Shown here in pieces: positions 48,303 to 63,947 of a DNA stretch of 64,000 nucleotides. Positions within the stretch are counted from its first letter, which is position 1; every line of letters starts with the position of its first letter. Below the pieces are notes generated by a model. It was not told the origin of the DNA and searched no databases. It saw only the letters and a program-made list of their open reading frames with translations. The translations under genes were made by a program, and so were the position numbers. The stretch comes from Acidobacteriota bacterium (GTDB lineage Bacteria; Acidobacteriota; Holophagae; Holophagales; Holophagaceae): contig JACPUT010000002.1 of the NCBI GenBank assembly GCA_016192145.1, positions 372,001 to 436,000 of the forward strand. Direction: 5' to 3'.

Positions 48303-50135
48303 ATGCCTTGGTCTTTGACGCGCAGGCGCGCGATGGTTTTGGCCTTCGGCCTGTCGGTGGCCGGCCTCGGCACCGTGGCCTACGTGAAGCTCCGGCGCGA
48401 CGTCGGGCAGGCCCTGGAGGGGTCGTTGCGGACCTCGGCGCCCCTTCAGTTCGCGCCCCTGGCCCGCATCGATCACCCGCTGGTCCGATGGGGGGGCGGC
48501 GAAGTGGAGGCCCTCGCGCTCACCTCGAATTGGCTCGTCTCGGCCGGTGCCTTCGGCATCGCGGATGAGAAGGGCGATCTCGGCCAGAGCCTGCCCACGC
48601 TCAAGGCCACGGCCCTTACGGCCTGGCGGGATCAGGCCGTGGTGGGCCTCGCTTCCGGGGGAATCTTCCTTCACCGCGGGGGGCAGTGGGAGGAACTGCG
48701 CACGGGCTTCGGCACCCTCCATGTGAGAACGCTGGTGGAAGGCGCGGGCGGCGAACTCTGGATCGGTGCGCGCGAAGGGCTCTACCGGGCCGCCTGGGGC
48801 GCCACCACGATGGATCGCGTGGATGGGAATCCGGTGAAATCCATCGCCCTCGGGGAGGGCGGCGCCGTGTTCGCGGGAGGTGAGGCGGGTCTCCGGCGTG
48901 TGGAGGGCCTGCGCGCCATCGCGATCGCCACCCCGGATCCCTGGATCGAGTGGGTGGGCGTCGCGGGTCGCGAGCTGCTGGTGGTCACGCCCCTGGGCCT
49001 CGCCCGAGGGCCCATGGAGGGGACGCTCACGCCCCAGGTCGGCGCGGAGGAGGCCAGCGATGCGGCGGTGCTTGGCGGGCAGGTGTTCGCGGTATCGCAG
49101 GGGCGGCTGCTCCGCTTGGATGAGGCGGGCCACGCCTCGGAGGAACTCCTTCCCGCCGCCGTCCGGCGGGTCTTCGCGATTCAAAATGCCCTCTTCGTGG
49201 ACACTTTCCGGGGCCTCTATCGGCGCACGCACTCGGGCTGGGTGCTGGCGCGCCCCCGCGCCGAAGCCCTGCCGCCGGGGCCAAGCCACATCAACGCGCT
49301 GGCGATGCTGGAGTCCCGCCTGGTGGTGGGGCTCTTCAACGGCGGCCTCGTAGTGGGGGAACCCGCGGAGCAGGGGAAGGCCCCGACGATGGCGTGGTCC
49401 GCCGTTCCAGGTAGCACGGCCTGGGGCGTGAATGCCCTGCTCAACGGCGGCGGCAGCCTCTACGTGGCGAGCCTGCGCGGCGCCTCCCGCTTCGACGGCC
49501 AAAAGCTGCATCCCCTCGAAGGGGGCGATGCCGGCGCGGCCTTCGCGTTGGCGCCCACCCCGGGCGGCGTCGCCGTGGGATTCGGCCAGGGCGTGTCGCT
49601 GCCCGGTGGCCGCTTCCTCTCCGCCTTCCATGGCCTGCCCGGCAACCAGGCGCTGGCGCTGGCCTCCGGCGAGCAGCTCTTCGTGGGCACGCCCACGGGC
49701 CTCGGCGCCATCGCGGGCAACCGCGTGCTTTGGCGCGTCACCGCGGGTGAGGGCAAACTGCCGCACCCCTGGATCACCGCACTCCAGCTGCGAGGCGATG
49801 AGCTCTTCATCGGCACCTACGGCGGCGGCGTCGCCCGCCGCACGGCTTCCAAGGCCAATCCCACCGGGGCGGGGCTGTTCGAACCCTTCCCGGAAACGGA
49901 AGGTCTGAAGGTCAACACGGGCTGCCTCGTGGAAGCGGGCGGCCGTCTCTACCTGGGCACCGATGGCAAAGGCCTCTACCGCCTCAGCGGAGATGGCCAC
50001 CGCTTCCTGCCCGTGCGCGTGCCGCTGCCCTCGCCCCGGGTCACCGCGATCCTGCCTGGCAAGGATGCGCTCTACGTCGGCACCGACGAAGGGCTCGCCC
50101 GCCTCAACCTCCCCCTTCCGGATGAGGGAAATTGA
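48303..50135 (+). CDS. membrane-anchored beta-propeller protein, first gene of the envelope operon
   Basis: About 610 residues. One N-terminal membrane anchor (about 8-28, AMVLAFGLSVAGLGTVAYV) is followed by a large periplasmic region of repeated propeller-like blades. Recurrent units include VGLASGGIFLHRGGQWEEL, LWIGAREGLYRA, FVDTFRGLYRRTHSGWV, LFVGTPTGLGAI, LFIGTYGGGVARR, LYLGTDGKGLYRL and LYVGTDEGLARL. These resemble two-component-regulator propeller (Reg_prop) repeats, but no kinase follows. The start is uncertain: ATG 48303 (no clear ribosome site) or GTG 48237. The next gene begins 1 bp after its stop. Confidence 0.78.
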   Translation: MPWSLTRRRAMVLAFGLSVAGLGTVAYVKLRRDVGQALEGSLRTSAPLQFAPLARIDHPLVRWGGGEVEALALTSNWLVSAGAFGIADEKGDLGQSLPTLKATALTAWRDQAVVGLASGGIFLHRGGQWEELRTGFGTLHVRTLVEGAGGELWIGAREGLYRAAWGATTMDRVDGNPVKSIALGEGGAVFAGGEAGLRRVEGLRAIAIATPDPWIEWVGVAGRELLVVTPLGLARGPMEGTLTPQVGAEEASDAAVLGGQVFAVSQGRLLRLDEAGHASEELLPAAVRRVFAIQNALFVDTFRGLYRRTHSGWVLARPRAEALPPGPSHINALAMLESRLVVGLFNGGLVVGEPAEQGKAPTMAWSAVPGSTAWGVNALLNGGGSLYVASLRGASRFDGQKLHPLEGGDAGAAFALAPTPGGVAVGFGQGVSLPGGRFLSAFHGLPGNQALALASGEQLFVGTPTGLGAIAGNRVLWRVTAGEGKLPHPWITALQLRGDELFIGTYGGGVARRTASKANPTGAGLFEPFPETEGLKVNTGCLVEAGGRLYLGTDGKGLYRLSGDGHRFLPVRVPLPSPRVTAILPGKDALYVGTDEGLARLNLPLPDEGN

Positions 50136-50136
50136 T

Positions 50137-52500
50137 ATGCGCCGATTCCTGGGTTCCCTCGCCTTCCTCGCCGCCTCCGCGCCATCGCCCCTCCGGGCCC
50201 AGGCCGGATTGCTCGTGCCCACCAGCACGGGCCGACCCGACGCGCGCGTGCTTTCGCTGCGCGAGATGAGCATCGACATCGGCCTGGCCCGGGGCTATGC
50301 GCGCGTCAACGTGCGGCAGGTCTTCGAGAACCACACGAACGATATCCAGGAAGGCACCTACCGCTTCGCGCTGCCCGCCTCGGCGGCCGTGGGCGATTTC
50401 GCAGTCTGGGATGGCCTCCAGCGCATCCCCGGCGTGATCCTCGAGAAGAAGCGGGCCCGCGCCATCTACCAGGAACTGACGCGACAGCGCATCGATCCCG
50501 GCCTCCTGCAGCAGGGTGAGGAGGAGGATGGCGAGGCGGGAGACGGCCGGTCGACCCGGCCCTCCGGCGGCGCGCTGTTCTCCGTCACCGTGGCCCCCAT
50601 CCCGGCCCACGCCACCAAGCGCCTGGAGCTGCAGTTCCAGCAGGAGGTGCCCTTCATCGGCGGCATCGGCGAGTTCCGCCTCGTGCTCCGCCCCCCCGAT
50701 GGCGAAGCCCCCACCGCGCGCCACCTCACCGTGAAGATCTCTCTGGACGGGGCCTTCGAGGCCGTGCCCGCGGGCCTGCCCCTGACGGCGAGTGCCGACG
50801 GTGCCGCGTTCACCGGCGAGAACGTGCGCCTCGACCGCGACCTCGTGCTGCGCGTCCGCCCCAGGGGCGGGGAGCCCCTGCGGCTCACTGCCTTCCGCAA
50901 CCCCGAAGGCGTGCTTCCCGAGGGCCTCGCGCTGGCGCCCTGGGAGCGCCCTTCCGAGATCCCGCCCGAGAAGGATGGCTTCTTCCTATTGGAGGCCCTG
51001 CCGGCCCCCGGCTCCAAGGTGAAGGCGGGACCTTCCGCCAAGGCCGGTCCTGCGGAACCGAAGCGCCCCGCGCAGGCGCTGGCGATCCTCTTCGACACCT
51101 CGCTGAGCCACCGCTGGGCCGGGTTGGAGACCGCCTACGCCCACCTCGTGCGCGCCCTGCAGTCCCTCGCCAGCGGAGATCGCTTCGCGCTCATCGCCTA
51201 CGACCGGACGGTCGCTGAAAATGCGCGCCTCCGTCCCGCCTCCGCGCAGGATATCGAAGCCGAGCTCACGGCCCTGCGCTCGCGCCCCCTGGGCCCCGGC
51301 GCCAACCTGGGCGCGGCCGTGGCCGTGGCCCGCAAGCTGGTGGGCGATCAGGGCCGGATCCTCCTGCTCACCAGCGGCCAGGGCCTGCCCGCTTCCAAGT
51401 CCCTCAAGGCTACGCTGGGCGCCACTCCGCTCTTCGCGGCCGTGACGGTGGGCGAGGCGGGCGAGTCTCTGCGCGCCGCTTCGGCCCAGGTGCTCTCCAA
51501 CACCGCCACGGAGATCGAGGGGGACCTCTTCTTCAAGCGCCTCCTTACGCCGCCGGAAGCCCCGGAAGCGCCATCGAAAAAGGTAGGTGAAGGCGGGAAC
51601 GCCCCCTTCACCGTCACCGGCGGCGACCCGAAGCTGCGCCACATCTACTCCGTGCTCGTGCAGCCCATGGAACCCGGCAGCCTCTCCGCCTGGGTGGGCC
51701 GCTACGCCGTGCCGCAGCCCAAGGTGCGCGTGGAGCTGGCCTCCCCGCTCTTCAAGGATGGCAGGCTGGGCCTCGACGGCGCCTTCCCCGAGAAGGCCCT
51801 CGAGGCCCGCGACCTGCCCCGGCGCTGGGCCCGCGCCCGGGTGGACGACCTCCTCGCCCGCATCGAGGCGGAAGGGGAGCGGCGCGAATGGGTGGACGAG
51901 ATCATCGAGCTCTCCAAGCGCTACAAGTTCATCACGCCCTACACGGCCTTCCTCGCGGCGCCGCGCTCCCTCCTCCGGCCTCGCCGCATCCAGCCCGGGG
52001 ATCCCGTGCTCCGCGTGGAGTGCGATGAGGGCACCGCCTTCGCGACGGCCCTCTTCCCCTTCGGGCTGAAGCTGGATCTGGTGCGCCGCCCGGCGACCAA
52101 CGTATGGGAGGGCCGCTTCCTCGTGCCCGAGGGGCTGAAGGATGGCCGCTACCCCGTGCGCATCCTCATGCGGGATCGCAGCGGCGCCCGCCTCAGTGAG
52201 ACCAAGCACTACGTGCTGGATGGCAGGGCCCCGGAGATCCAGCCCCAGCTGCCCGCCACGGCGCAGGCCGGCGAGGTGCTGCGCGTGGAGGTGAAGGCCG
52301 ATGAGGATGTCGTCCTCCTCACCGCCCGGCTCGGGGATGGCCCGCCGATCCCCCTGCGCTGGGATCCCGCGGCCAAGCGCAGCGTGGGCCTCCTGCGCAT
52401 CCCCGCGGAAGCGCGCGGGGCGCAGGAGATCCTCTTCGAAGCCGTGGATGCCGCCAAGAATCGTGGATTCGCCCGTGCCGCCCTGGAGGTGAAGCCGTGA
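50137..52500 (+). CDS. exported VIT and von Willebrand factor A domain protein
   Basis: 787 residues with a signal peptide (FLGSLAFLAASAPSPLRAQ). An N-terminal VIT domain spans about 40-190 (LREMSIDIGLARGYARVNVRQVFENHTNDIQEGTYRFALP; VILEKKRARAIYQEL). A VWA domain follows at about 310-480 with the metal site DTSLS (DxSxS) in LAILFDTSLSHRW. The C-terminal 250 residues are Ig-like in part (RYPVRILMRDRSGARLS). VIT-VWA proteins mediate metal-dependent protein binding outside the cytoplasm. It overlaps the next gene by 4 bp (GTGA). An acidic insert EEEDGEAGDGRSTRPSGG interrupts the VIT domain. Confidence 0.88.
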   Translation: MRRFLGSLAFLAASAPSPLRAQAGLLVPTSTGRPDARVLSLREMSIDIGLARGYARVNVRQVFENHTNDIQEGTYRFALPASAAVGDFAVWDGLQRIPGVILEKKRARAIYQELTRQRIDPGLLQQGEEEDGEAGDGRSTRPSGGALFSVTVAPIPAHATKRLELQFQQEVPFIGGIGEFRLVLRPPDGEAPTARHLTVKISLDGAFEAVPAGLPLTASADGAAFTGENVRLDRDLVLRVRPRGGEPLRLTAFRNPEGVLPEGLALAPWERPSEIPPEKDGFFLLEALPAPGSKVKAGPSAKAGPAEPKRPAQALAILFDTSLSHRWAGLETAYAHLVRALQSLASGDRFALIAYDRTVAENARLRPASAQDIEAELTALRSRPLGPGANLGAAVAVARKLVGDQGRILLLTSGQGLPASKSLKATLGATPLFAAVTVGEAGESLRAASAQVLSNTATEIEGDLFFKRLLTPPEAPEAPSKKVGEGGNAPFTVTGGDPKLRHIYSVLVQPMEPGSLSAWVGRYAVPQPKVRVELASPLFKDGRLGLDGAFPEKALEARDLPRRWARARVDDLLARIEAEGERREWVDEIIELSKRYKFITPYTAFLAAPRSLLRPRRIQPGDPVLRVECDEGTAFATALFPFGLKLDLVRRPATNVWEGRFLVPEGLKDGRYPVRILMRDRSGARLSETKHYVLDGRAPEIQPQLPATAQAGEVLRVEVKADEDVVLLTARLGDGPPIPLRWDPAAKRSVGLLRIPAEARGAQEILFEAVDAAKNRGFARAALEVKP

Positions 52501-55500
52501 ACCTCGCACCCCTCACTGCTTCCGCCCGCCGCTGGATGTTCCGGAAACCGATCCGTACCGCCGTCGTGGCCGGCCTCGCCGCCGTGGGCATCGCCGCGAC
52601 CGTGCCCTGGACCGAGCTCACGGAGGCCGATTGGGTCTACGCCCTCGCCACGCGCTTCTCCCTGGTGGATGGCCATCGCGTGCACTACCCCACGCCCTCC
52701 GCGGAACTGGCCAAGCTCCTCGAGGGACGCGGCGAGACGTCGGCCCTGCGCCACCTCGCCGAGGCCCGGATGAGCCTGGGCGATCGCAAGGGCGCGCTCG
52801 CGGCCATGGAGAAGTGGGCCGCCGCCGAAGGCGCCCAGGCCTGGGATGAGACGGCCCGCTGGGCCGCCGGCCACAAGGAGATGGAAGCCGCCTTCCGCGC
52901 CGCGGAGAAGGCCCTGCCGGGGCTGCCGGAAGAGGCGCGGCTCGACCTCGCCAACCGTCGCATCGAGTGGGCGGTGCTCCACCCGGAGGCCGCCGACGCC
53001 CTCGCCCTGCGCAAGGCCCGCGTGGCCCTCTTCCCGGCGAATGCCCAGGCCCTGGAGGACTACGTCCGGGCCCTGGAAAAGGCGAATCGCCTCCCGGAGG
53101 CCGACGCGGCCCTCGCCGCCTCCCAGGCCCTGGGCCCGGAGCGGCGCCTGCTCCTGCGCGCCGATCTGCTGGCCTCCCACGGCGATCCCCGGGCGGCCTT
53201 CCAGGTGCTGGATGCCGCCGTGGCGGAACCCTGGACCATGGACTTCCGCCGCGCCTACGTGGCCCGGGTGGACAAGGGATCCCCCACGGCGCCCGCCGGC
53301 TGGCGCGGTACCCTGGAGGCCCGCTTCGATGCGGCCGCCCTCGTGCGCCTCGCCACCTATTTCGAAGGCCAGGGCCGCGGGGATGCCCTGGCGGATCTGC
53401 TCCGCCAGATGGAGCGACGCTACGGCCGGGAACTCACCCGCAAGGATCAGCTCCTCCTGGCCCGCCTCCACGGGGAGATCGACGCGGTGCCCGAGGCCTT
53501 CCGGGCCCGGCTCGCGGCCGCCCACCTCGGCAGCGCCGAGGACCAGCACGGGGATCTCGCCGCCCTCGCCCACCTCGCCCTCGGCGCGGGGGGACGTCCC
53601 CTCGCCTGGGGCACCTACAACGACGAATCCTACAAATGGGTGGCGAGCCTCGACCGCACGCCGGGCTTCTGGACCGGCGGCCTCTCCTTCCTCCTCACGG
53701 GCGAGGATTGGAAGGGCGCCCTGGCGCGCCTCGAGAACGAGAGCCTCTCCGATCGCACCTTCGCCACGGCCCGGATGCTGGCCGACGAACTCGTGCGCCG
53801 GGCGCCCCGCCATGCGGATCTGCCCGCCCTGCGCGTGGCCCTCATGCGCAAGCACGTGGAGCGCGGCGAGGGCAGGGCGGCTCTCGCCCTCCTGCCCCTC
53901 GTGGAAGCCGCGCCGCCGGCCATCGCCGACGAGGCCCGCCGCGTGGCCCTGCTCGCCGTCATTCTGGCGGACGTGCCGCTCGCCGAGGAGGTCCGCCTCT
54001 TCAAGGCCCGCCTGAAGCACCTCGCCCCCGATGGCACCCGGCCCCTGGCCCCGCGCGGCGCCCCCTACTCCAGCGGTTCGGAAGGCGAAGGGGACTACGA
54101 AGGTGCCTATGACGAGTCCCATGGCGAAGCCCGTCCCTGGGCGCGGCAGCGCCTCGCGCAGCCCTCCCAGACCTACGCCAGGCTGCTGGATGAAGGCCTC
54201 TCCCGCCTCGAGCACCTCAACCCCGACCACCGCGCCTCCCTGGATCTGATCCTCACGGAAATGGACCGCCTTCCGGACGACGAGCAGCTCTGGATGCAGC
54301 TCGCCTCCCGCCTGGGGAGCTGGAACTTGGATGACGAACTGGGCCCGCGCTTCGAGCGCGCCCTCAAGGCCTTCCAGGGCCCCGGCATCTGGGACAAGGC
54401 CGCCCGCTGGTACGCCCGCCGGAACCAGCACCAGGCCCTCCGCGGCCTGGCCCAGTCCGTGGCCGACCGCTTCCGCGGCACGGCCCTCTTCGCCAAGGTG
54501 AACGGCGCCGGCGACGTGCGCGTGGAAGTGCCCGAGCAGCCCACCGTGGGCGGCCGCGTGCGCATGGTGCTCTGGGCGGATTGGGTCCGCCTCAAGGCCC
54601 TGGAGCGCTTCCCCCACAGCCCCGCCGTCGTGCAGCAGGCCCAGAACCTCGTGGCCATGAGTGCTTACCAGAAGCGCTTCGATCCGGTGAAGGAAGCCCG
54701 GCTTCCGCACACGGTCACCGTGGTGCCCGACGCCCTCATGGAGGAACGCCGCTGGGCCATCCTCTTCGTGGACGCCAGCCAGCGCGAGGCCTGGTTCGAG
54801 GAGGCCATGCGCAAGGGCAACCTGGAGGCCCGCCTCGGGGCCCTCGAGGCCAAGACCGACCGCACGCCCGTGGAGGATCTCCTGCTCTTCGAGGGCTGGT
54901 GCCGCCTCTCCCGCTTCGAGCGGGCCATGGCCCCGGGCGATCGCCTGGCCGCCAGCTATCCCGGCGACGGCGCCCTCGCGCATCGCGTGCTCTCCCTGCA
55001 CCGCTCCCTCAACGGGCTGGAGACCTCCCACGCCGGCCCGGCCATGGCCCTCGTGGCCCGCACGGCCCCGGCCCTGGAGGATCCCAGCAGCCTGTGGACC
55101 GAGCTCGGCGAGCTGGAGGAGGATCGCGGCCGTCCCCAGGCGGCCATGGAGATCTGGAAGCACCTCGCCGATGGCGAAGCGCGCAACCCCCAGCGCATCT
55201 CCGAGTGGTCCACGCTGCTCTGGGACTACCACCACGACAAGGAGGCCCTGGCCGTCGTCGAGGAGGGCCGCCAGCGCCTCGGCCGCCCGAAGTTCTTCGC
55301 CTTCGAGACGGGTGTCCTGCGCGAGAACCTGAAGGATCTCGACGGCGCCGTGCGCGAGTACCTGAACGCCCTGCGGCCCGAGGAGGCCCACGGCTTCGAT
55401 TGGTTCGAGCAGGATCAGCGCTCCCTGCGCCGATTGGCGCAGCTCCTGGCCCGGGAGCGCGTCTATCGCCTCGTGGAGGCCCGCATCAAGGCCCTCAAGC

Positions 55501-58500
55501 CCGGCGTCGCCGAGGACGAGCGGACCCTGGCGGGCTACTACCCCCTGGCGGGCATCGAGCCCCCGGCCCCGGGCTTCGATTGGGATGCGGATTCCTGGAT
55601 CGATTCGATGGACCTGCCCAACGACCCCGTGGGGCGCGGCCAGCGCGCGGAGCGCAAGGTGTCCGAGCGGCCCCGGGAGTACGACGCCATCCAGCGCATC
55701 GGCGATCTGCTCCTCGAGAAGACCCGCGAGATGGCCCCCCGGGCCACGGTGGTGGAGTTCGTGAACGCCGCCGACACTTGGAGCCAGCGCCTCATCGAGG
55801 CACGCTGGACGCCGGATCAGGCGATCACCTTCCAGAGCGGCCTCATGGCCCGCCGGGCGGCCCTGTCCCCCTCCGATGAAGATCGAATTCAAAAGGAGAT
55901 GGCCCGCGCGGACTTCCTCTCCGGCAAGGGGCGCGCCGCGGAGGCCGACGCCGTGTGGGCCTCCCTGGATGCCCGCATCGGCGCCCTGCCCGAGGGCTCC
56001 GTGCGCCTGAGGGCCGAGGCCGGTCGCGCCGGCTACCTGGAGCGTGCCAAGGGCGTGGAGGCCGCCGCCGCCGAGTGGCGCCGCGTCACGGGCCGCTACC
56101 CCTGGAGCCTCGGGCTCCTGGAGGATCGCCTCGCCTTCCTGCAGCGCAACGCCAAGGGCGAGGAGGCCCGGGCTGCCTTGGAAGGCGTGCTGCCCAAGGC
56201 GGCCGCCGGCCATCGCGAACCCCTACTGGAACGCCTCACCCAGGAGTGCCTCGCCGCCCATGACCTGCCCCGCGCCCGCCGCGCCGTGCAGCTGCTCCTG
56301 GCCTCCGAGGGGTTGGACGATGCGCGCCGCCTCGGCGCCATCCACCTGATGGCCCGGCTCTCCCTCAAGGAGAATGCCGGCTGGGATCCCTATGCCTTCG
56401 CGAAGGTCGAGGCCGCCAAGCTGAGGCCGGAGCTCCACGCGGAGCTCTACCGCACCCTGGCCCGCGCCGTGGATCTGGAGGGCGGCACCGGCCCCGTCCC
56501 GGGCCTCTGGATCGAAGCCCTCAACCGCCGCACCGAGCGCGAGTGGGTGGAGGCCGCCTCCCGGTCCGCCAAACGCGCGGGTAAGGGCCCGGAGCTCCTC
56601 ACCTTCTTCGAGAAGCAGCTGCAGCGCAGCCCCCGCGACGTGCGGTGGGCCGTGGCCGTGCGGGACATCCGGAAGGTCTACCACGATGTCGAAGGCGCCC
56701 TCGCGGCGGCCAGGGCCGCCGTGGCCGTGCGTCCCGAGCAGGAGATCCTCTGGCGCGAAGCCGTGGAGCTGATGGTGCGGGCGGATCGCCCCTTGGACGC
56801 CGCCGATTACCTGGAAGGCTGGAACAAGCCCCGCCTCGCCGATGAAGGCGTCGCCCGCTGGCGCGGTCAGCTCTATGCGCAAGCCGGCGATGGCGCTAAG
56901 GCCCTGGCCACGGAGCAGGCGGCCCTCGCCGCCTACCGCCGCGAGAACGCGGGGGATGTGAGCGGCCTTCAGGAACGGACGGCCCGGTCCGCCGAGCGGC
57001 TGCTGGAGTACGGCTTCCCGGATCTGGCCCTGCGCCTCTACTCCCCGAAGCACGATGCCCGGGATCTGGTGAACACCCGCCTCTCCCTGGAACGCCAGGC
57101 GCAGATCGCCCTGCTGAACAACCAGTTCGTGCGCCTGCTGGCCACCACGCCGGAGCAGGATCGCCGGGGCTATCTCGTCGGGTCCCTCGTTCGGCATGGG
57201 CGCGGGGATCAGCGGGAGGAGGTGCTCGCCCACATCCTGCGCAGCGTCTACCCCGTCAGCGGCCAGCCCTCGAATACGGCCCTCACCACCTGGTGGCCCG
57301 TCGCCCAGCAGGCGGAGCTGGAAGAGCCGCTCCGCATGGCCATCGCCCAGCGGCTCCTCGCGAACCGCCCCGGCTCCTGGCAGGCGGGGGCCCCCGTGGC
57401 CTTCCTGCAGGCCTTGAGCGCCTCAGTGGTGCACCATCGGAGCCTCAACGGCAACCGGTGGTGGGAACTCCAGACGCCCGACGTGGAGGGCCTCTGGGCC
57501 CGGGATCTCGCCCGCCGCGACCGCGGCGAGGAGCTGCTCGGCTTCGTGGAGCCTCGCTGGCAGGAACTCATGGCCCAGGTACATCAACCCTTGTGGATGA
57601 CTACTTCCCTGAAGAGCATCGGTAAGGATCTTTCCGCCGACACTCCCCGCCAGCCCTGGTCCCTCTGGCTGGATGATCCCCGCGTGCTCGCCGTATGGGC
57701 CCGCGCCGTGGCGAACCATCCCGAGAAGGTGAAGGACCTCTCCGAGGTCATGGGCAACCGCGCCCTTTGGGACCGGTTCTGGGTGCTGGCCGCTCGCCAC
57801 TGGAAGCCGGAGCCCCTGCTGGCGGCGCTTCCGCAAGACACGCGCCTCGCCTGGTTCAGGTTCTGGGAACCGGCGCTGCAAGCGCAGGATCCCGTGCTCG
57901 TCGCCCGACACCGCGTGGTGGAGCAGGTCACCACGGCGCTGGGCCGCCTCGTGCAGGGCGCGCCCGATGCCGTGAAGGACCCCCTCATCGCCAAGCTGCG
58001 CGGCCCCCAGACCGTGGGCGAGGTGCTGGGCAAGGGCGGCCAGTGGACGTGGCCGGAGTTCACGCCACGCCGCGACGCCAAGGGCGAACTCAAGGAAGAG
58101 GGCGATGATCGCGTCCTCGGCTCGGGCGTGGATCAGGGCCGCGTGCCCGGCGCCCTCTGGGGCGATCGCCCCGGCGAGGCCTGGTACGTGCTCGAGGCCC
58201 TCGCCCGCCATCGGCAGGGGGATGCCTCGGCGCCCTACCTCCCGCTGGATGCGCCCGTGCGCGGCGGCGAAACCAGCCGCACCCTGCTGGCCATGCGCAT
58301 GGCCCGCGCGGAGCGGAACCTGCCCCTCGCCCTGGAGATCATGGGTCGCCGCCCTGGCGGCGCCCACGACCGCGCCTGGCTCGAGGGCCAGGTCGCGCTG
58401 CTCGTGGCCGCCAACCAGCGCGAGCAGGCCGTGGAGACCTTCGGCGCCTACGTGCTGGCGGCCCAGGCCAAGCTCACGGAAGGGGAGTTCCGCAGCCTCG

Positions 58501-60203
58501 CGGCCCTGGCCGAGGATGGGGGGTTGCCTACGACCCTGGATCTGCTGGATCCCAACAAGCCCGTGGGCCCCGCCTTCCTGGCCTACCTTCGGGACCTCCG
58601 CCCCGCCGAAGCCGCGCGCTTCAGCACCGCCGATCCCCACGGCTACCGGGCGGCCCTCGCCCACCGTTGGCGGGAGCGGGAGCCCCAGCTCGGTGCCGAT
58701 CAGATCCGGTACTGGCTGAAGGAGCTGTGGGCCCACGACAGCGCCTCCCTGCCGCGCCGCGGCCTGGCGAAGCTGGGTGGGCCCTGGCCCCACGCCGCCG
58801 CATGGCTGGAGCGCCAGCCCGTCTCCGAGCGGCTGTCCGTGCTGAACGCCATGGAAGAGGCCCTCAAGCCTTCCGTGGCCAACCCCGAGCTCTTCGCGCG
58901 GCTGACCCATTCCGGCAGCGATGACGTGGCGGATCTTCTGGCCGTGCGCGTGCGCTTGGCCCGGGGCGAAGCCGCCGCCGCGCTGGCGCTGGCGGAGGGC
59001 ATGCTCGCGGAGCTGCGCCGGGGCGAGTCCCTCAGCTTCTCCGTCCCCGAGCGCCTGGTGGAAGGGCCCGAGGGCGAGGGTGGGGATGAGTACCAGGCCC
59101 CCGAACGCCCCAGCGCGGCTGACGCCACCGTGGACCGCCTGCGGGCCTGGCTCAAGCCCTTCCGGGATGCCAAGGGCGCCGCGCCCTTCGAGGCGCGGAT
59201 CCGCACCTTCCTGAGCGGCAAGCGCCAGGAGGGCATCACCCCACTGCCCGCCTGGAAGCTGGCCTTCGAACTGACCCCGGTGGCCGAAGCCCCGGCCCTC
59301 GGGCTGGAGCTGGAAGAGGCCTGGTTCCGCGGCGAGGTGCAGGCCGAGGAGCTGGGCGCGCTCACGGAGACGCTGGCCACCAGCCTCCCCGATCAGGCGC
59401 CGCGCTGGCTCGCCCGCTGGCCCCGGCGCCATGCCTTCGGCACCACCGCCCAGCGCGCCGCCGTCCTCGGGGTGCTCAAGCGCCCCGCGGACGGGGCCAA
59501 GGCCCTCTTCGACGGCCGCCGCCGCGCCGCCTGGGAGGCCCGCGAGGAGGTGCAGGCCTTCGACGCCTGGCGGCGCATGGGCGCGCCCGTGCCCGTGGAT
59601 GAAAAACCGCCGCAGGCCTGGACCGAAGCCCTTCCCGCCTGGGAGGGCAAGGCCGAGGCCATCGTGGGCCCGCTCGGCACCCGCCTGAAGGCCCACCCCC
59701 TGGACGTGCTCTCCGCCCGGGCCGCCCTCCGCAGTCCGGCGGCCGGCGACGAGGATGCCCTGCTCCGCGCGGGGCTCGCCCTGGGCAGCACCTCCCGCCG
59801 CGATGGCGACGGGGATCAGCTCCTGCTCCGCGTCCGCGTGGCCCGGGGCCTCCTGCCCCGGTCCGCCGAGGCCGCGAACTGGGCCCTTGAAGGGGCCTCT
59901 CCGGAAGGCATCGGTCGCCTGCTCGTGCAGCGCCGCTTCCGCACGGCGGAGATCAACGGCGCCCTGGCGGATGCCGCGCGCATCGCCCGGAAGGTGAACA
60001 GTGAACGCGGGGTGCAGGAAGCGCTGAAGATCCTCTCGGATCGCAACGCCCCGAGCGTGAAGGCCCTACGCGCGGAGCTCCTGGTTCCAGAAGGACCGCC
60101 CAGCGCCTACCGCATGGTGGATGGCCGCCCCGCGCCCATCCGTCCCCGGGACCTCACCTGGTCCCTGCTCGCCAATGTCATCAAGGCGGAGGGCGTCCGA
60201 TGA
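52497..60203 (+). CDS. giant membrane-anchored helical-repeat protein (2568 residues)
   Basis: 2568 residues in one uninterrupted frame. A single membrane segment lies at about residues 20-40 (TAVVAGLAAVGIAATVPW), leaving about 2500 residues in the periplasm. The body is Ala/Leu/Arg/Glu-rich helical hairpins that resemble TPR or related repeats throughout (for example ALRHLAEARMSLGDRKGALAAMEKWA; DARRLGAIHLMARLSLKENAG). No enzymatic motif was found. Start: GTG overlapping the VIT-VWA stop (GTGA). The end overlaps the next start (ATGA). It is presumably the scaffold of an envelope complex formed with the VIT-VWA and propeller proteins; this is inference from coupling. It does not match any single family I can name. 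Confidence 0.8.
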   Translation: MNLAPLTASARRWMFRKPIRTAVVAGLAAVGIAATVPWTELTEADWVYALATRFSLVDGHRVHYPTPSAELAKLLEGRGETSALRHLAEARMSLGDRKGALAAMEKWAAAEGAQAWDETARWAAGHKEMEAAFRAAEKALPGLPEEARLDLANRRIEWAVLHPEAADALALRKARVALFPANAQALEDYVRALEKANRLPEADAALAASQALGPERRLLLRADLLASHGDPRAAFQVLDAAVAEPWTMDFRRAYVARVDKGSPTAPAGWRGTLEARFDAAALVRLATYFEGQGRGDALADLLRQMERRYGRELTRKDQLLLARLHGEIDAVPEAFRARLAAAHLGSAEDQHGDLAALAHLALGAGGRPLAWGTYNDESYKWVASLDRTPGFWTGGLSFLLTGEDWKGALARLENESLSDRTFATARMLADELVRRAPRHADLPALRVALMRKHVERGEGRAALALLPLVEAAPPAIADEARRVALLAVILADVPLAEEVRLFKARLKHLAPDGTRPLAPRGAPYSSGSEGEGDYEGAYDESHGEARPWARQRLAQPSQTYARLLDEGLSRLEHLNPDHRASLDLILTEMDRLPDDEQLWMQLASRLGSWNLDDELGPRFERALKAFQGPGIWDKAARWYARRNQHQALRGLAQSVADRFRGTALFAKVNGAGDVRVEVPEQPTVGGRVRMVLWADWVRLKALERFPHSPAVVQQAQNLVAMSAYQKRFDPVKEARLPHTVTVVPDALMEERRWAILFVDASQREAWFEEAMRKGNLEARLGALEAKTDRTPVEDLLLFEGWCRLSRFERAMAPGDRLAASYPGDGALAHRVLSLHRSLNGLETSHAGPAMALVARTAPALEDPSSLWTELGELEEDRGRPQAAMEIWKHLADGEARNPQRISEWSTLLWDYHHDKEALAVVEEGRQRLGRPKFFAFETGVLRENLKDLDGAVREYLNALRPEEAHGFDWFEQDQRSLRRLAQLLARERVYRLVEARIKALKPGVAEDERTLAGYYPLAGIEPPAPGFDWDADSWIDSMDLPNDPVGRGQRAERKVSERPREYDAIQRIGDLLLEKTREMAPRATVVEFVNAADTWSQRLIEARWTPDQAITFQSGLMARRAALSPSDEDRIQKEMARADFLSGKGRAAEADAVWASLDARIGALPEGSVRLRAEAGRAGYLERAKGVEAAAAEWRRVTGRYPWSLGLLEDRLAFLQRNAKGEEARAALEGVLPKAAAGHREPLLERLTQECLAAHDLPRARRAVQLLLASEGLDDARRLGAIHLMARLSLKENAGWDPYAFAKVEAAKLRPELHAELYRTLARAVDLEGGTGPVPGLWIEALNRRTEREWVEAASRSAKRAGKGPELLTFFEKQLQRSPRDVRWAVAVRDIRKVYHDVEGALAAARAAVAVRPEQEILWREAVELMVRADRPLDAADYLEGWNKPRLADEGVARWRGQLYAQAGDGAKALATEQAALAAYRRENAGDVSGLQERTARSAERLLEYGFPDLALRLYSPKHDARDLVNTRLSLERQAQIALLNNQFVRLLATTPEQDRRGYLVGSLVRHGRGDQREEVLAHILRSVYPVSGQPSNTALTTWWPVAQQAELEEPLRMAIAQRLLANRPGSWQAGAPVAFLQALSASVVHHRSLNGNRWWELQTPDVEGLWARDLARRDRGEELLGFVEPRWQELMAQVHQPLWMTTSLKSIGKDLSADTPRQPWSLWLDDPRVLAVWARAVANHPEKVKDLSEVMGNRALWDRFWVLAARHWKPEPLLAALPQDTRLAWFRFWEPALQAQDPVLVARHRVVEQVTTALGRLVQGAPDAVKDPLIAKLRGPQTVGEVLGKGGQWTWPEFTPRRDAKGELKEEGDDRVLGSGVDQGRVPGALWGDRPGEAWYVLEALARHRQGDASAPYLPLDAPVRGGETSRTLLAMRMARAERNLPLALEIMGRRPGGAHDRAWLEGQVALLVAANQREQAVETFGAYVLAAQAKLTEGEFRSLAALAEDGGLPTTLDLLDPNKPVGPAFLAYLRDLRPAEAARFSTADPHGYRAALAHRWREREPQLGADQIRYWLKELWAHDSASLPRRGLAKLGGPWPHAAAWLERQPVSERLSVLNAMEEALKPSVANPELFARLTHSGSDDVADLLAVRVRLARGEAAAALALAEGMLAELRRGESLSFSVPERLVEGPEGEGGDEYQAPERPSAADATVDRLRAWLKPFRDAKGAAPFEARIRTFLSGKRQEGITPLPAWKLAFELTPVAEAPALGLELEEAWFRGEVQAEELGALTETLATSLPDQAPRWLARWPRRHAFGTTAQRAAVLGVLKRPADGAKALFDGRRRAAWEAREEVQAFDAWRRMGAPVPVDEKPPQAWTEALPAWEGKAEAIVGPLGTRLKAHPLDVLSARAALRSPAAGDEDALLRAGLALGSTSRRDGDGDQLLLRVRVARGLLPRSAEAANWALEGASPEGIGRLLVQRRFRTAEINGALADAARIARKVNSERGVQEALKILSDRNAPSVKALRAELLVPEGPPSAYRMVDGRPAPIRPRDLTWSLLANVIKAEGVR

Positions 60204-61723
60204 TTCGCGCCATGGTGTTTTCAACCCTGACCACGCTCGTGCTCTTTGGACAGGCGCCCTTGCCCCTGCCGGAGGGCCCCGTGCGCCTCGTCATTCCCGA
60301 GGCCGCCGCCTTCGACGCGGCGCTGAGGGGCGGCTACCGGGAGTTCCTAAACGGGGAACCTCGGGAGGGCGATCCCCTCGTCACCGCCTGGCGGCGCACC
60401 CAGGTGGGCAGCAAGCTCGAGGACCAATGGGGCCGCCTCTCGGGCGACCTCCCCTGGACCTGGGAGACGATCCGCAAGCTGCAGCCCAAGGCCGTGGGCC
60501 TCGCCCTCCTGGAGGTGGGCCACCTCGAAGCGGTGCTCGTCATCGAGACGGCGCTCGCGCAGTTGCCCGTGGCGCTGCCCCAGGGCCGCACCCGCACCCA
60601 CGGTGGCCAGTCCTACGCCCTCGTGACGCCGGGCGCCGCGGACAACAGCGAGGACAAGGATCGCCGCATGGGCCTCGCCTGGGCCCGCATGGGCGGCCGC
60701 CTCATCCTCGCGACCAGCGAACGCGCCCTAAAGCGGGCGCTGGACGAGGCCCTGGCGGGCCGGGGCTTCAAGCCCGCGTTGCCCGGCCTCGTCTCCATGG
60801 AACTGAACCTCGACGTGCTGCGCGCGGACCGCTACTTCCGCCGCGAGTTCCCCTTCCCCGAGGGGCCCGAGAAGGGGCGCATCCAGGCCGCGCTCCGCCA
60901 GGAGAACGGTCGCCTGATCGAAGTCCGCGAAGGGACGAACGAGCCGCGCAGGGGCGTGTTCTCCTTCCCGGGCGCGAACCTCGCCGCCGCCGGGTGGCAG
61001 GCCGAGGGCGAGGCCTTCTGGCCCACCTTCCGCCGGGCCTGTCTGGAACCCATCCCCACCTTGTCGAATGAGCCCGTGACCGCGCCGGGGCCCCTGCCCC
61101 TGGCAGGCCCCCAGACGGGCGATGACCGCTACGCCGTGGACTTCACCAAGCCCAAGGTGAGCGGCGGCGGGTCCAGCTCCGAGGAGGGAGACCTCGCTCC
61201 CTGGAGGGCCCTGCTGATCCGCCAGCCGGTGGCGAGCTGGGGCTACGCCATCACCGCCGATGGCGCACGTCGCATGGCCTTCCCCTGGCCCGCGAATCTG
61301 GACGGGGAATTCCTGGAAGCGTGTCGCGCCACCGTGGCTCGACGGGCCGGCCGCGCCACGGTGCACAAGGCCGGCGACACGCAGGAGATCCGCGTGGGCC
61401 CCGGCCTGCCGGCCCTGGCCCTGCGCCGCACCGGCGACCTGCTCTGGGTGGGCGCCTCCTTCCGGGAGCTGCAGGCCATGCCCCAACCCAAGGCCGAGGC
61501 GGACCTCGTCCGCTGGGCCCAGGTGGATCTGGGCGCGGTGCGCAGCGAATCGGCCCGCTGGGAGCGGGTGGAAGGCCCGGCCCGCCCCGAGCAGGTGCGC
61601 CCCCTCTCGGATCGCGTGCTCGGGCTCCTGGGCTGGATGCCCGCCACCCGCTCCCTGCGCGTGGAACGCCACCGCACGGCGGCGGGGTGGTCGGAGAGGG
61701 TGACCTTCGGGCCGGGGCAGTGA
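60200..61723 (+). CDS. exported protein of unknown function, possibly YfaA/DUF2138-like by context
   Basis: 507 residues with an N-terminal signal-type segment (MVFSTLTTLVLFGQ). Soluble periplasmic mixed alpha/beta protein. Features include PWTWETIRKLQPKAVGLALLEVGHLEAVLVIETALAQL, a paralogous-looking second half (VASWGYAITADGARRMAFPWP; ALRRTGDLLWVGASFRELQAM), and a Gly/Ser-rich linker GGGSSSEEGD. By size, by location after the VIT-VWA and giant genes, and because a YfaQ-like gene follows, it could correspond to the DUF2138 (YfaA) component of E. coli yfaSTQPA-type clusters; sequence reading alone does not prove this. Starts with ATGA overlap. Confidence 0.6.
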   Translation: MIRAMVFSTLTTLVLFGQAPLPLPEGPVRLVIPEAAAFDAALRGGYREFLNGEPREGDPLVTAWRRTQVGSKLEDQWGRLSGDLPWTWETIRKLQPKAVGLALLEVGHLEAVLVIETALAQLPVALPQGRTRTHGGQSYALVTPGAADNSEDKDRRMGLAWARMGGRLILATSERALKRALDEALAGRGFKPALPGLVSMELNLDVLRADRYFRREFPFPEGPEKGRIQAALRQENGRLIEVREGTNEPRRGVFSFPGANLAAAGWQAEGEAFWPTFRRACLEPIPTLSNEPVTAPGPLPLAGPQTGDDRYAVDFTKPKVSGGGSSSEEGDLAPWRALLIRQPVASWGYAITADGARRMAFPWPANLDGEFLEACRATVARRAGRATVHKAGDTQEIRVGPGLPALALRRTGDLLWVGASFRELQAMPQPKAEADLVRWAQVDLGAVRSESARWERVEGPARPEQVRPLSDRVLGLLGWMPATRSLRVERHRTAAGWSERVTFGPGQ

Positions 61724-61802
61724 GTTCGGAAGGACTGAGGTGGATGCCTCCCCGAAGGTGCCGTGCCGCTTGCTCCGCCTCTGGGTGGGGGTGAAAGGCA
61801 TG

Positions 61803-61891
61803 ACGCAGAGGCGCGGAGACGCAGAGGCGCAGAGGATGGCATGGCTTACCTCCGGCTCCACGTTTGCCTTCATTTCTCTGCGCCTCCGCGT
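61803..61891. repeat. GACGCAGAG-type palindromic element
   Basis: Left arm ACGCAGAGGCGCGGAGACGC continuing AGAGGCGCAGAG (61803-61835). Right arm CTCTGCGCCTCCGCGT (61876-61891). Same design as the other repeat-built palindromes, with a different unit. Confidence 0.75.
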
Positions 61892-61932
61892 CCCATCCAT
61901 CAACGTCGCTCACAGCGCGGTGAATACCTGTG

Positions 61933-62143
61933 AACCACCAAGACACCAAGGGCACCAAGGGGGCCTGACCCACCCCAGTCATCCCCTTCGGAGGCGGCGC
62001 CAAGCGGACCCTCGAGAGTCCTCTTGGCGCCGCCTCCGAAGGCAGGCCCAGCTTCGCTGGACCTGGGGCCGTAGGCCCGGATGGCCTTGCAGACTGGCCG
62101 AAGGCAGCCTGCTTTTCTTGGTGACCTTGGTGCCTTGGTGGTT
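61933..62143. repeat. ACCACCAAG-type palindromic element, copy 3, with a nested hairpin
   Basis: Outer arms AACCACCAAGACACCAAGGG (from 61933) and CTTGGTGCCTTGGTGGTT (ending 62143). The centre is much longer than in copies 1 and 2 and holds a separate 19-bp perfect palindrome at 61986-62041, as if another element had inserted. Confidence 0.82.
61986..62041. repeat. 19-bp perfect inverted repeat nested in ACCACCAAG copy 3
   Basis: CTTCGGAGGCGGCGCCAAG and its exact inverse CTTGGCGCCGCCTCCGAAG are separated by 18 bp. There is no T-run on either side. Confidence 0.85.
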
Positions 62144-62222
62144 CAAAAGGAGGCGTTCATGCCCCGGGGTGCCCTGCGGGGTGCGGGGTCTGCGCCGGGC
62201 CGTTTTCTTCGACCATTGGCGC

Positions 62223-63947
62223 GTGCTTGCATCGAAGCCAAATGAAGGAACGGATCCCCGTCTCACCCGCATCTCGTTCTGGCTGATGTTCGCCGGGTGC
62301 CTCGGAATGGGACCCATCCTCGCCCAGGAACCTGTGCTCCACACCTGGCGCATGGATCACGGCCACTTGGAGATCTCCGAAGGCGCGTCCGACTCGCCCC
62401 TGGCGGTGGGCTCCCTGCAGAAACCCTTCGTGGCCCGGGCCTGGGCGCACGCCCATCCGGACGCTCCCACGCCCCGCTTCGCCTGCTCTGGCGGTGGCGC
62501 CTGCTGGCTGAAGCCGGGGCACGGCGAGCTGGGCCTCGCCACCGCGCTCGCCCGCTCCTGCAATGCCTATTTCCGCCAGTTAGCTTCGGCCACGCCCCCC
62601 GAGGCCCTGGCTGAAGCCCTTGGGAGCGCGGGCTTCTCGCCGGCCCCCACCACGGCCGAGGAAGCCATCGGCCTCGCCGCCCCCAACCTCCTGCGCATCC
62701 ATCCTTCCCGGCTGATGGAGGCCTATCGCGAGCTGCTGCGGGATCCCTGGGCCCAGGGCGAAGGCGTCCGGCGCGAGGTGCTCGCGGGGTTGCGGGAGGG
62801 CGCGCGCACGGGAACCGGGGTCGGCGTGGGGGCCTGGGGCCTATGGGTGAAGACGGGCACCGTCCCCCTGGATGCCCAGCGCACCGTGGGCTTCGCCCTG
62901 GCGCTGGATGAGGGGGGCCTGGCGATGCTGGCCCGCCTTCGCCCCGGCACCGGGGCCCAGGCGGCCGCGGCGCTGGCGGCGCCCCTGGCCGCCCGGCGGC
63001 CGGGCACGCCCGTGAAGCCTCCGGCGAGGGGCGACGTCACGGTGCGCCTCTTCGATCTCCTGCCTGCGACGCGCTTCACCGTGCGCAACGTCGGCACCAC
63101 GCCCCTCCCCGATGGCCGGGGTTTCCTGGGCCCCGGGGCCTCCCGCCCCCTCCAGCCGGGGGATCGCGTGGGGCCGGGCCCGCTGGAGCTCCGTGCCGAG
63201 GCCCGGGGCCTGCGCCGCCGTTTCACGGGCCGCCTGCAGGTGGCGAATGGACGCCTGCTCGCCACGCTCTCCCGCCGGGCCTATGCGGAGGGCGTCCTCG
63301 CCGCGGAGCTGCCTCACGGTTCACCGGCGCTGCGGCTGGAGCTGGGCGCCGCCACGCTGCGCTTCCTCGCCCAGGGCCGCCGCCACGTGGACGCGGACGT
63401 CTGCGACAGCACCCACTGCGCCTGGTTCGTGGGGCAGGGCCCGCGGCTGGATTGGACGGATCCCGCCCGGGCCCGGGAGACCCGCGAAGCCGATCCGGCG
63501 CCCCTGGCCGATGCCGATTGGGAGCGCATCGAACGCATGGCCCTGGGGCCCGGCCCGTCGCTGTGGTCCGCCCACTGCGGGGGCTCGCCGCTCAGCACCC
63601 GGCGCGTGTGGGGATTTGGCGAGGCCACGGCAGCCCCCTGCCCGCGGCATCCAGGCCCAGCGGACACCTGGGTTCGCACCTGGGGCCGAGCGGAGCTGGA
63701 GAAGGCCTTCGGTCCGGGCGTCGATGCCATCGCCTTGACGCCGGAACCCGGCGTGTGGGGGTTAATTCTCACCCGCCACGGCGTGCGGAGGACCTTCGGC
63801 TTCGACGAGGCCCACCGCCGCATCGCGGGCGTGCTGGGATGGGATGCCCTGCCGAGCCCTGCGGATCGCCTCGAATTCACCGCGGAGGGCGTGCGCCTCC
63901 AGGGCGCCGGGTCCGGGCACCGCGTGGGGCTGTGCCTCGGGGAGTGA
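62223..63947 (+). CDS. YfaQ/DUF2300-like exported protein: penicillin-binding-protein motifs plus SpoIID-like domain
   Basis: About 574 residues, close to E. coli YfaQ. After a signal-type segment (FWLMFAGCLGMGPILAQ) the order of motifs is that of serine transpeptidases: SLQK (Ser64-Lys67, SxxK), SCN (112-114, SxN) and KTG (210-212). The C-terminal half has a SpoIID/LytB-like region, RRAYAEGVLAAELPHGSPALR followed by DVCDSTHCAWFVG. This suggests peptidoglycan binding or modification in the periplasm, linked to alpha-2-macroglobulin-type clusters in other bacteria. No A2M gene is in the window. The start is uncertain: GTG 62223 or ATG 62286; a 14-codon ORF (62242-62286) ends on that ATG. Confidence 0.72.
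   Translation: MLASKPNEGTDPRLTRISFWLMFAGCLGMGPILAQEPVLHTWRMDHGHLEISEGASDSPLAVGSLQKPFVARAWAHAHPDAPTPRFACSGGGACWLKPGHGELGLATALARSCNAYFRQLASATPPEALAEALGSAGFSPAPTTAEEAIGLAAPNLLRIHPSRLMEAYRELLRDPWAQGEGVRREVLAGLREGARTGTGVGVGAWGLWVKTGTVPLDAQRTVGFALALDEGGLAMLARLRPGTGAQAAAALAAPLAARRPGTPVKPPARGDVTVRLFDLLPATRFTVRNVGTTPLPDGRGFLGPGASRPLQPGDRVGPGPLELRAEARGLRRRFTGRLQVANGRLLATLSRRAYAEGVLAAELPHGSPALRLELGAATLRFLAQGRRHVDADVCDSTHCAWFVGQGPRLDWTDPARARETREADPAPLADADWERIERMALGPGPSLWSAHCGGSPLSTRRVWGFGEATAAPCPRHPGPADTWVRTWGRAELEKAFGPGVDAIALTPEPGVWGLILTRHGVRRTFGFDEAHRRIAGVLGWDALPSPADRLEFTAEGVRLQGAGSGHRVGLCLGE

Follow-up and report, generated by a model that had tools for sequence, protein, structure and literature searches.

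A conserved operon of Acidobacteriota encodes a giant predicted solenoid protein and a PBP/SpoIID-type protein

Introduction

What could a 2,568-residue helical protein be doing in a bacterial envelope, encoded in one tight run with three other anchored or exported proteins? This question is raised by a locus of a Holophagaceae bacterium, found in a 64,000-nucleotide stretch of DNA that we call here the window. The original prediction saw in the four genes a large periplasmic complex that had not been described before. It noted a likeness to the yfa operon of E. coli and the mag operon of Pseudomonas. Here, we follow the locus through its domains, its relatives and its neighbours, and propose a role for it.

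Gene organisation of the operon

The four coupled genes were correctly delineated, with their frames, coordinates and junctions (Table 1). PROP is separated from the VIT-VWA gene by a 1-bp gap; the VIT-VWA gene overlaps the giant gene by 4 bp, and the giant gene overlaps that of EXP507 by another 4 bp. The start codons, as we place them, are ATG for VIT-VWA and EXP507 and GTG for the giant, and GGAGG-like sites precede both the giant and the 507-residue protein gene. As expected, all four products are predicted envelope proteins, membrane-anchored or exported.

The four genes were said to contain no enzyme. This holds for the four but not for the operon: a fifth gene, coding for a PBP/SpoIID-type protein, is part of it. 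Its distance from the end of the EXP gene is 1-20 bp in relatives and about 500 bp in the window. The intervening spacer carries three pairs of inverted-repeat arms (61931-61959/62117-62145, 61985-62013/62014-62042 and 61818-61834/61876-61892) and gives 75 BLAST matches across the window’s genome; in relatives, such repeats are absent between these genes. Given this composition and the short distance in relatives, a repeat insertion probably split an ancestral five-gene unit.

For all five genes, omega against the nearest orthologues lies between 0.12 and 0.26. Together with the order and overlaps recurring in relatives, this indicates real genes under constraint, not chance frames.

Table 1 Features of the operon and its spacer, in window coordinates.
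Feature	Position	Strand	Basis
PROP: predicted N-terminal membrane anchor and beta-propeller, 610 aa	48303..50135	+	Reg_prop match, hydrophobic stretch, gene order
VIT-VWA protein: predicted signal peptide, C-terminal Ig-like region (by eye), 787 aa	50137..52500	+	Pfam
VIT domain	50257..50637	+	PF08487, E 1.1e-18
VWA domain, DTSLS but TSG instead of TDG	51082..51381	+	PF13519; alignment
GIANT: predicted N-terminal membrane anchor and 2500-residue alpha-solenoid, 2568 aa	52497..60203	+	TPR matches, AlphaFold (C-half), Foldseek
EXP507: predicted exported protein, distantly DUF3352-like, 507 aa	60200..61723	+	Profile comparison
Spacer of dispersed palindromic repeats between genes 4 and 5	61724..62222	.	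Inverted repeats, BLAST
Fifth gene: PBP-type transpeptidase domain fused to SpoIID-type domain, YfaQ homologue, ~574 aa	62223..63947	+	GTG start inferred
SxxK motif (SLQK)	62412..62423	+	S60 and K63 invariant in 9-orthologue alignment
SxN motif (SCN)	62556..62564	+	Invariant in 9 orthologues
KTGT motif	62850..62861	+	Invariant in 9 orthologues
Candidate SpoIID catalytic Glu	63306..63308	+	E358 invariant in 9-orthologue alignment
SpoIID-type VCDSTHC motif	63399..63419	+	Kept in 8/9 orthologues

Subunits of the four-gene core

The propeller assignment of PROP is confirmed by the Reg_prop model (PF07494), which matches the window copy at 21.7 bits (cut-off 20.4) and its relatives at 48-52 bits. 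The protein has a hydrophobic stretch at about residues 10-30, and its gene stands 5' of the VIT-VWA gene in 10 families.

The VIT-VWA protein matches the Pfam models VIT (67.8 bits) and VWA_2 (30.6 bits). It had been described as carrying a metal-dependent adhesion domain of the DxSxS type: the first part of the site is indeed there, as DTSLS, but the site is not intact. A functional MIDAS combines DxSxS with the Asp of TDG, and this third ligand is replaced by Ser (TSG). Outside Holophagaceae the site mostly reads DTSLS/TDG, with DTSLS/SDA in two copies, and it is intact in most other families aligned. Its degeneration occurs mainly in Holophagaceae, where TDG changes to TSG or TGG and DxSxS to ExSxS, ExSxG or DxGxG. 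Since the TDG Asp is Ser here and some Holophagaceae have lost DxSxS as well, metal-dependent binding is doubtful in this family, and metal binding by VIT-VWA has probably degenerated there.

A close described architecture is that of TIGR03788, the marine proteobacterial sortase target, with which the protein has in common a VIT and a VWA domain over about 600 residues. The matches, at 84-196 bits, are however far from the cut-off of 552; the cluster protein also has a C-terminal region of its own, of about 180 residues, and no sortase is seen nearby. A second VIT protein (open frame of 815 aa) is encoded elsewhere in the window’s genome, at L001 (G000:C11:17085-17417).

The giant keeps a length of ~2,400-2,650 aa across relatives, even at 18-22% identity. 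The window copy is too divergent for any Pfam match; TPR models (TPR_19) match 7 of 9 orthologues. AlphaFold predicts the C-terminal 1089 residues as an all-α solenoid (mean pLDDT 83.6), in agreement with the enormous helical scaffold originally predicted. In Foldseek, this half best matches PDB structures of solenoid scaffolds, IFT-A, Ctr9 and Ski3 among them, at low TM-scores that speak for the fold class only. Altogether, the orthologues and the predicted C-half place the giant among TPR proteins; beyond generic ones, no characterised family matches it. Neither the giant nor EXP was found on plasmids, and the VIT-VWA profile retrieved only generic VIT/VWA proteins there.

EXP507 has no Pfam match. 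Its profile aligns with a DUF3352 protein over ~160 N-terminal residues (89%, E 2.1e-6), but no EXP member scanned has a DUF3352 match. Searches of EXP profiles against the PDB gave nothing useful, and the EXP507 model finds there only TP0453, a Treponema lipoprotein, too weakly for use (E 8e-4, TM 0.26/0.47). Exported proteins of related type occur apart from the module: EXP-like ones in Chloracidobacterium-like genomes (L047 9038-12772, L107 7913-9853), one adjoining a GAF/SpoIIE phosphatase gene in G123. In two f11 genomes (L113 7261-9072, L114 7601-9421) a DUF3352-type exported protein is encoded upstream of the module, on the same strand, with an opposite-strand gene between.

Taken by their relatives, these subunits might scaffold the assembly or export of a surface appendage or polymer, for which the wall enzymes would make a local opening. 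In NCBIfam, the giant is closest to TPR proteins that include PrsT, PilW and PgaA, the relatives of VIT-VWA are sortase or PEP-CTERM targets, and in two genomes, G402 and G251 (f33; L066 2975-4501, L068 1674-3128), the module has a PilT-like gene immediately upstream. These TPR matches are nonetheless generic, and all stay below cut-off. Relatives of the giant reach 127-143 bits with PrsT, within an overall range of 16-143 bits and against a cut-off of 312; the likeness to PrsT and PEP-CTERM TPR proteins is that of a long TPR solenoid, the giant being about three times longer, with no exosortase seen nearby. The conserved unit, moreover, has no glycosyltransferase, polymerase, ATPase or outer-membrane barrel, and its flanking genes vary between genomes: the PilT neighbour occurs only in the two genomes named, and we dropped it as a module part for want of conservation. 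We thus consider a polymer or appendage scaffold improbable.

Conservation across Acidobacteriota

We searched whole genomes across Acidobacteriota, 297 in the sample and many of them metagenome assemblies, with the full-length VIT-VWA profile as the query of the phylum survey. Module members score 690-1230 bits and reach the C-terminus; ordinary VIT-VWA proteins score 300-370 bits and end at ~608. The full-length protein is present in 28 of the genomes, from 16 families. Two such genes each are found in G051 and G063.

PROP, VIT-VWA, GIANT and EXP occur together and in this order in 10 families (labelled here f1, f9, f11, f17, f21, f22, f27, f33, f59 and f86), so that the order extends well outside Holophagaceae. 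The module genes of f38 are split between two contig ends; of the module copies in f77, one has the propeller and the other does not. Outside the class of the Holophagaceae, the module was found in f33, f38, f86, f9, f22, f17 and f27 and in the class of G400, a genome with two copies on different contigs (L074, L110/L117), one of them without the propeller.

Every complete Holophagaceae locus examined has the five-gene order, except G219, which has VIT-VWA, giant and EXP only. Within the class, 15 of 93 genomes have the giant; a further entry, the 16th, is a weak match that contains stops. About 78 of the 93, the majority, are without the cluster, which argues that it is not essential wall machinery.

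Two observations favour the idea that the core parts work together. The genes of the giant, VIT-VWA and EXP are all retained in the Chloracidobacterium-like family f31, though they lie hundreds of kilobases apart there. Conversely, no giant is encoded in three Geothrix-like genomes that are without the cluster and have generic TPR matches at best.

The fifth gene and its enzymatic domains

The N-terminal half of the fifth protein has profile matches in the PDB to PBP2 (1.8e-6). The window copy scores 16 bits with the transpeptidase model PF00905, below the cut-off of 22.1. The fused form matches SpoIID weakly, in 5 of 9 members (best E 0.004), the window copy having no Pfam SpoIID match. We take E358 to be a candidate catalytic residue, from what is known of SpoIID.

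Clearer identification comes from other lineages. Transpeptidase and SpoIID domains share one gene in Holophagaceae and, outside the class, in f33, f38 and f86, where the fused fifth gene accompanies the module. In f9, f27 and f17, the EXP gene is followed by two adjacent genes, one with the transpeptidase domain and one of the SpoIID type. The split transpeptidases match PF00905 at 27-47 bits (cut-off 22.1), and SxxK, SCN and KTG are intact in the four copies from f9 and f27; a motif scan did not find them in the f17 copy. The split SpoIID proteins match PF08486 at 55-72 bits (cut-off 23), and the match to SpoIID_LytB (TIGR02669) stands at 155 bits (cut-off 83.3). Stand-alone SpoIID genes from f9 and f27 retain D[ST]THC. 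Through these split homologues, and through motifs invariant in all 9 fused orthologues, the two halves are recognised as a putative PBP-type transpeptidase domain and a SpoIID/LytB domain.

Judged from the genes, this alternation of fusion and fission would link the PBP-type and SpoIID activities with one another as well as with the scaffold. A peptidoglycan function is argued for most strongly by this enzyme pair, fused or split, following the same core.

The enzyme genes do not adjoin the module everywhere: none stand next to it at G219, G315, G274, the f11 loci and G400, and at G132 there is a SpoIID gene only. Because of such loci, the role of the four-gene core may be distinct from that of the enzymes. 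It might even be a distinct sensing or adhesion complex, with the enzymes as frequent but functionally loose neighbours, and the MIDAS largely intact outside Holophagaceae would suit it. The spacing of 1-20 bp, tight in several families, and the adjoining of both fused and split forms to the same core speak against such a loose association, which we hold to be quite unlikely.

Relation to macroglobulin operons

The flanking gene had been called YfaQ-like. Profile comparison demonstrates this homology: the fifth protein aligned to YfaQ of E. coli and Citrobacter in hhalign at 94.9% (E 4.6e-8, 301 columns), with unrelated controls at E 0.26-0.82. Pfam's own DUF2300 model gives no match to the fifth protein, and the gene, as described above, belongs to the operon and does not merely flank it. 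In the two enteric YfaQ proteins the motifs read SCG and KTW; in the Acidobacteriota protein the PBP motifs are complete.

The same bipartite structure, with PBP-like and SpoIID-like halves, was predicted for YfaQ in a 2025 study, where the phenotype of the E. coli yfaQ deletion groups with peptidoglycan-remodelling mutants (PMC12282094). The P. aeruginosa mag operon forms a macroglobulin complex (PMC5764988); we infer from gene order that MagE is the YfaQ counterpart there. Both yfaA-T-S-Q-P and magABCDEF resemble the present operon by this homologue and by encoding all-envelope proteins in one operon. In place of macroglobulin, DUF2138, DUF1175 and DUF2135 proteins, however, the Acidobacteriota operon has a propeller, a VIT-VWA protein, a giant of 2.5k residues and a DUF3352-like protein. 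The cluster is not a member of the yfa/mag family: they have one component in common and perhaps a purpose.

The main alternative to wall remodelling is built on this component. The complex would guard the periplasm and peptidoglycan, as Mag does, against contact-delivered toxins, proteases or predators, the giant and VIT-VWA replacing the α-macroglobulin and the YfaQ-like enzyme serving as a repair arm. Inter-α-trypsin inhibitor heavy chains have a VIT-VWA architecture, which the cluster protein resembles, and the patchy presence of the cluster within a family fits an accessory defence trait. Besides the YfaQ homology, this reading draws on the protection that the mag operon of P. aeruginosa confers against peptidoglycan-targeting T6SS effectors (PMC12663445). 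Against it, the characteristic partners are all missing from the cluster. As originally noted, there is no macroglobulin in the cluster; nor is there one elsewhere in the window’s genome, with no A2M match and no MG2 match over cut-off. A2M has no match in 9 cluster-bearing Holophagaceae searched, and some cluster-bearing genomes carry separate macroglobulins. DUF2138 (YfaA) is found in none of the 297 genomes, and DUF2135 (YfaP) and DUF1175 (YfaT) have no Pfam match in the five cluster genes. Comparisons of EXP507 with DUF2138 (E 0.07-0.63) and of the VIT-VWA C-terminus with DUF2135 (E 0.13 in profile comparison) gave no support for a match. Finally, no PADLOC model matches any of the five proteins, so known anti-phage defence was set aside as well. 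On balance, a Mag-like guard seems unlikely.

Proposed function

We now propose, giving it about an even chance, that the operon encodes an undescribed periplasmic complex, tethered to the inner membrane, which would organise peptidoglycan remodelling. The giant would act as a TPR-like scaffold, held at the inner membrane by its N-terminal helix and spanning the periplasm. Three further proteins, the anchored propeller, VIT-VWA and the DUF3352-like one, may be sensing or bridging subunits bound to it. The PBP/SpoIID protein, a single gene product here and two in other lineages, would be the working end: its PBP half would act on peptide stems or cross-links and its SpoIID half would cut glycan strands, the pair editing the wall wherever the complex is positioned, be it in growth, repair or protection.

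A complex with a role in the wall is favoured because the core order holds in 10 families and the enzyme gene follows within 1-20 bp in relatives. Homology points to the wall as the target, through the invariant SxxK, SCN and KTG motifs and the peptidoglycan-type deletion phenotype of the YfaQ homologue.

A partial parallel is the engulfment complex DMP of B. subtilis (SpoIID-SpoIIM-SpoIIP; PMC5158138), where a SpoIID-type enzyme and another wall enzyme work as a pair within one anchored assembly, an arrangement predicted here from genes. In the Acidobacteriota operon a PBP-type domain replaces the SpoIIP amidase, a giant scaffold is added, and the host is not a spore former.

In the literature and databases searched we found no description of the cluster; in this respect too, the original prediction of an undescribed system stands. 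It may further be, though we hold this only tentatively, that the operon represents a phylum-wide envelope machine, in which a tethered TPR solenoid of 2,500 residues, together with the propeller and the VIT-VWA and DUF3352-like proteins, directs a coupled PBP/SpoIID pair, the YfaQ of macroglobulin operons being one branch of a wider class of scaffolded wall-repair systems. In one of the most common soil phyla, a conserved module whose function had not been described is now given a testable role. For the YfaQ/MagE enzyme, a second context is gained, free of macroglobulin and with the PBP motifs complete, in which its chemistry may be assayed separately.
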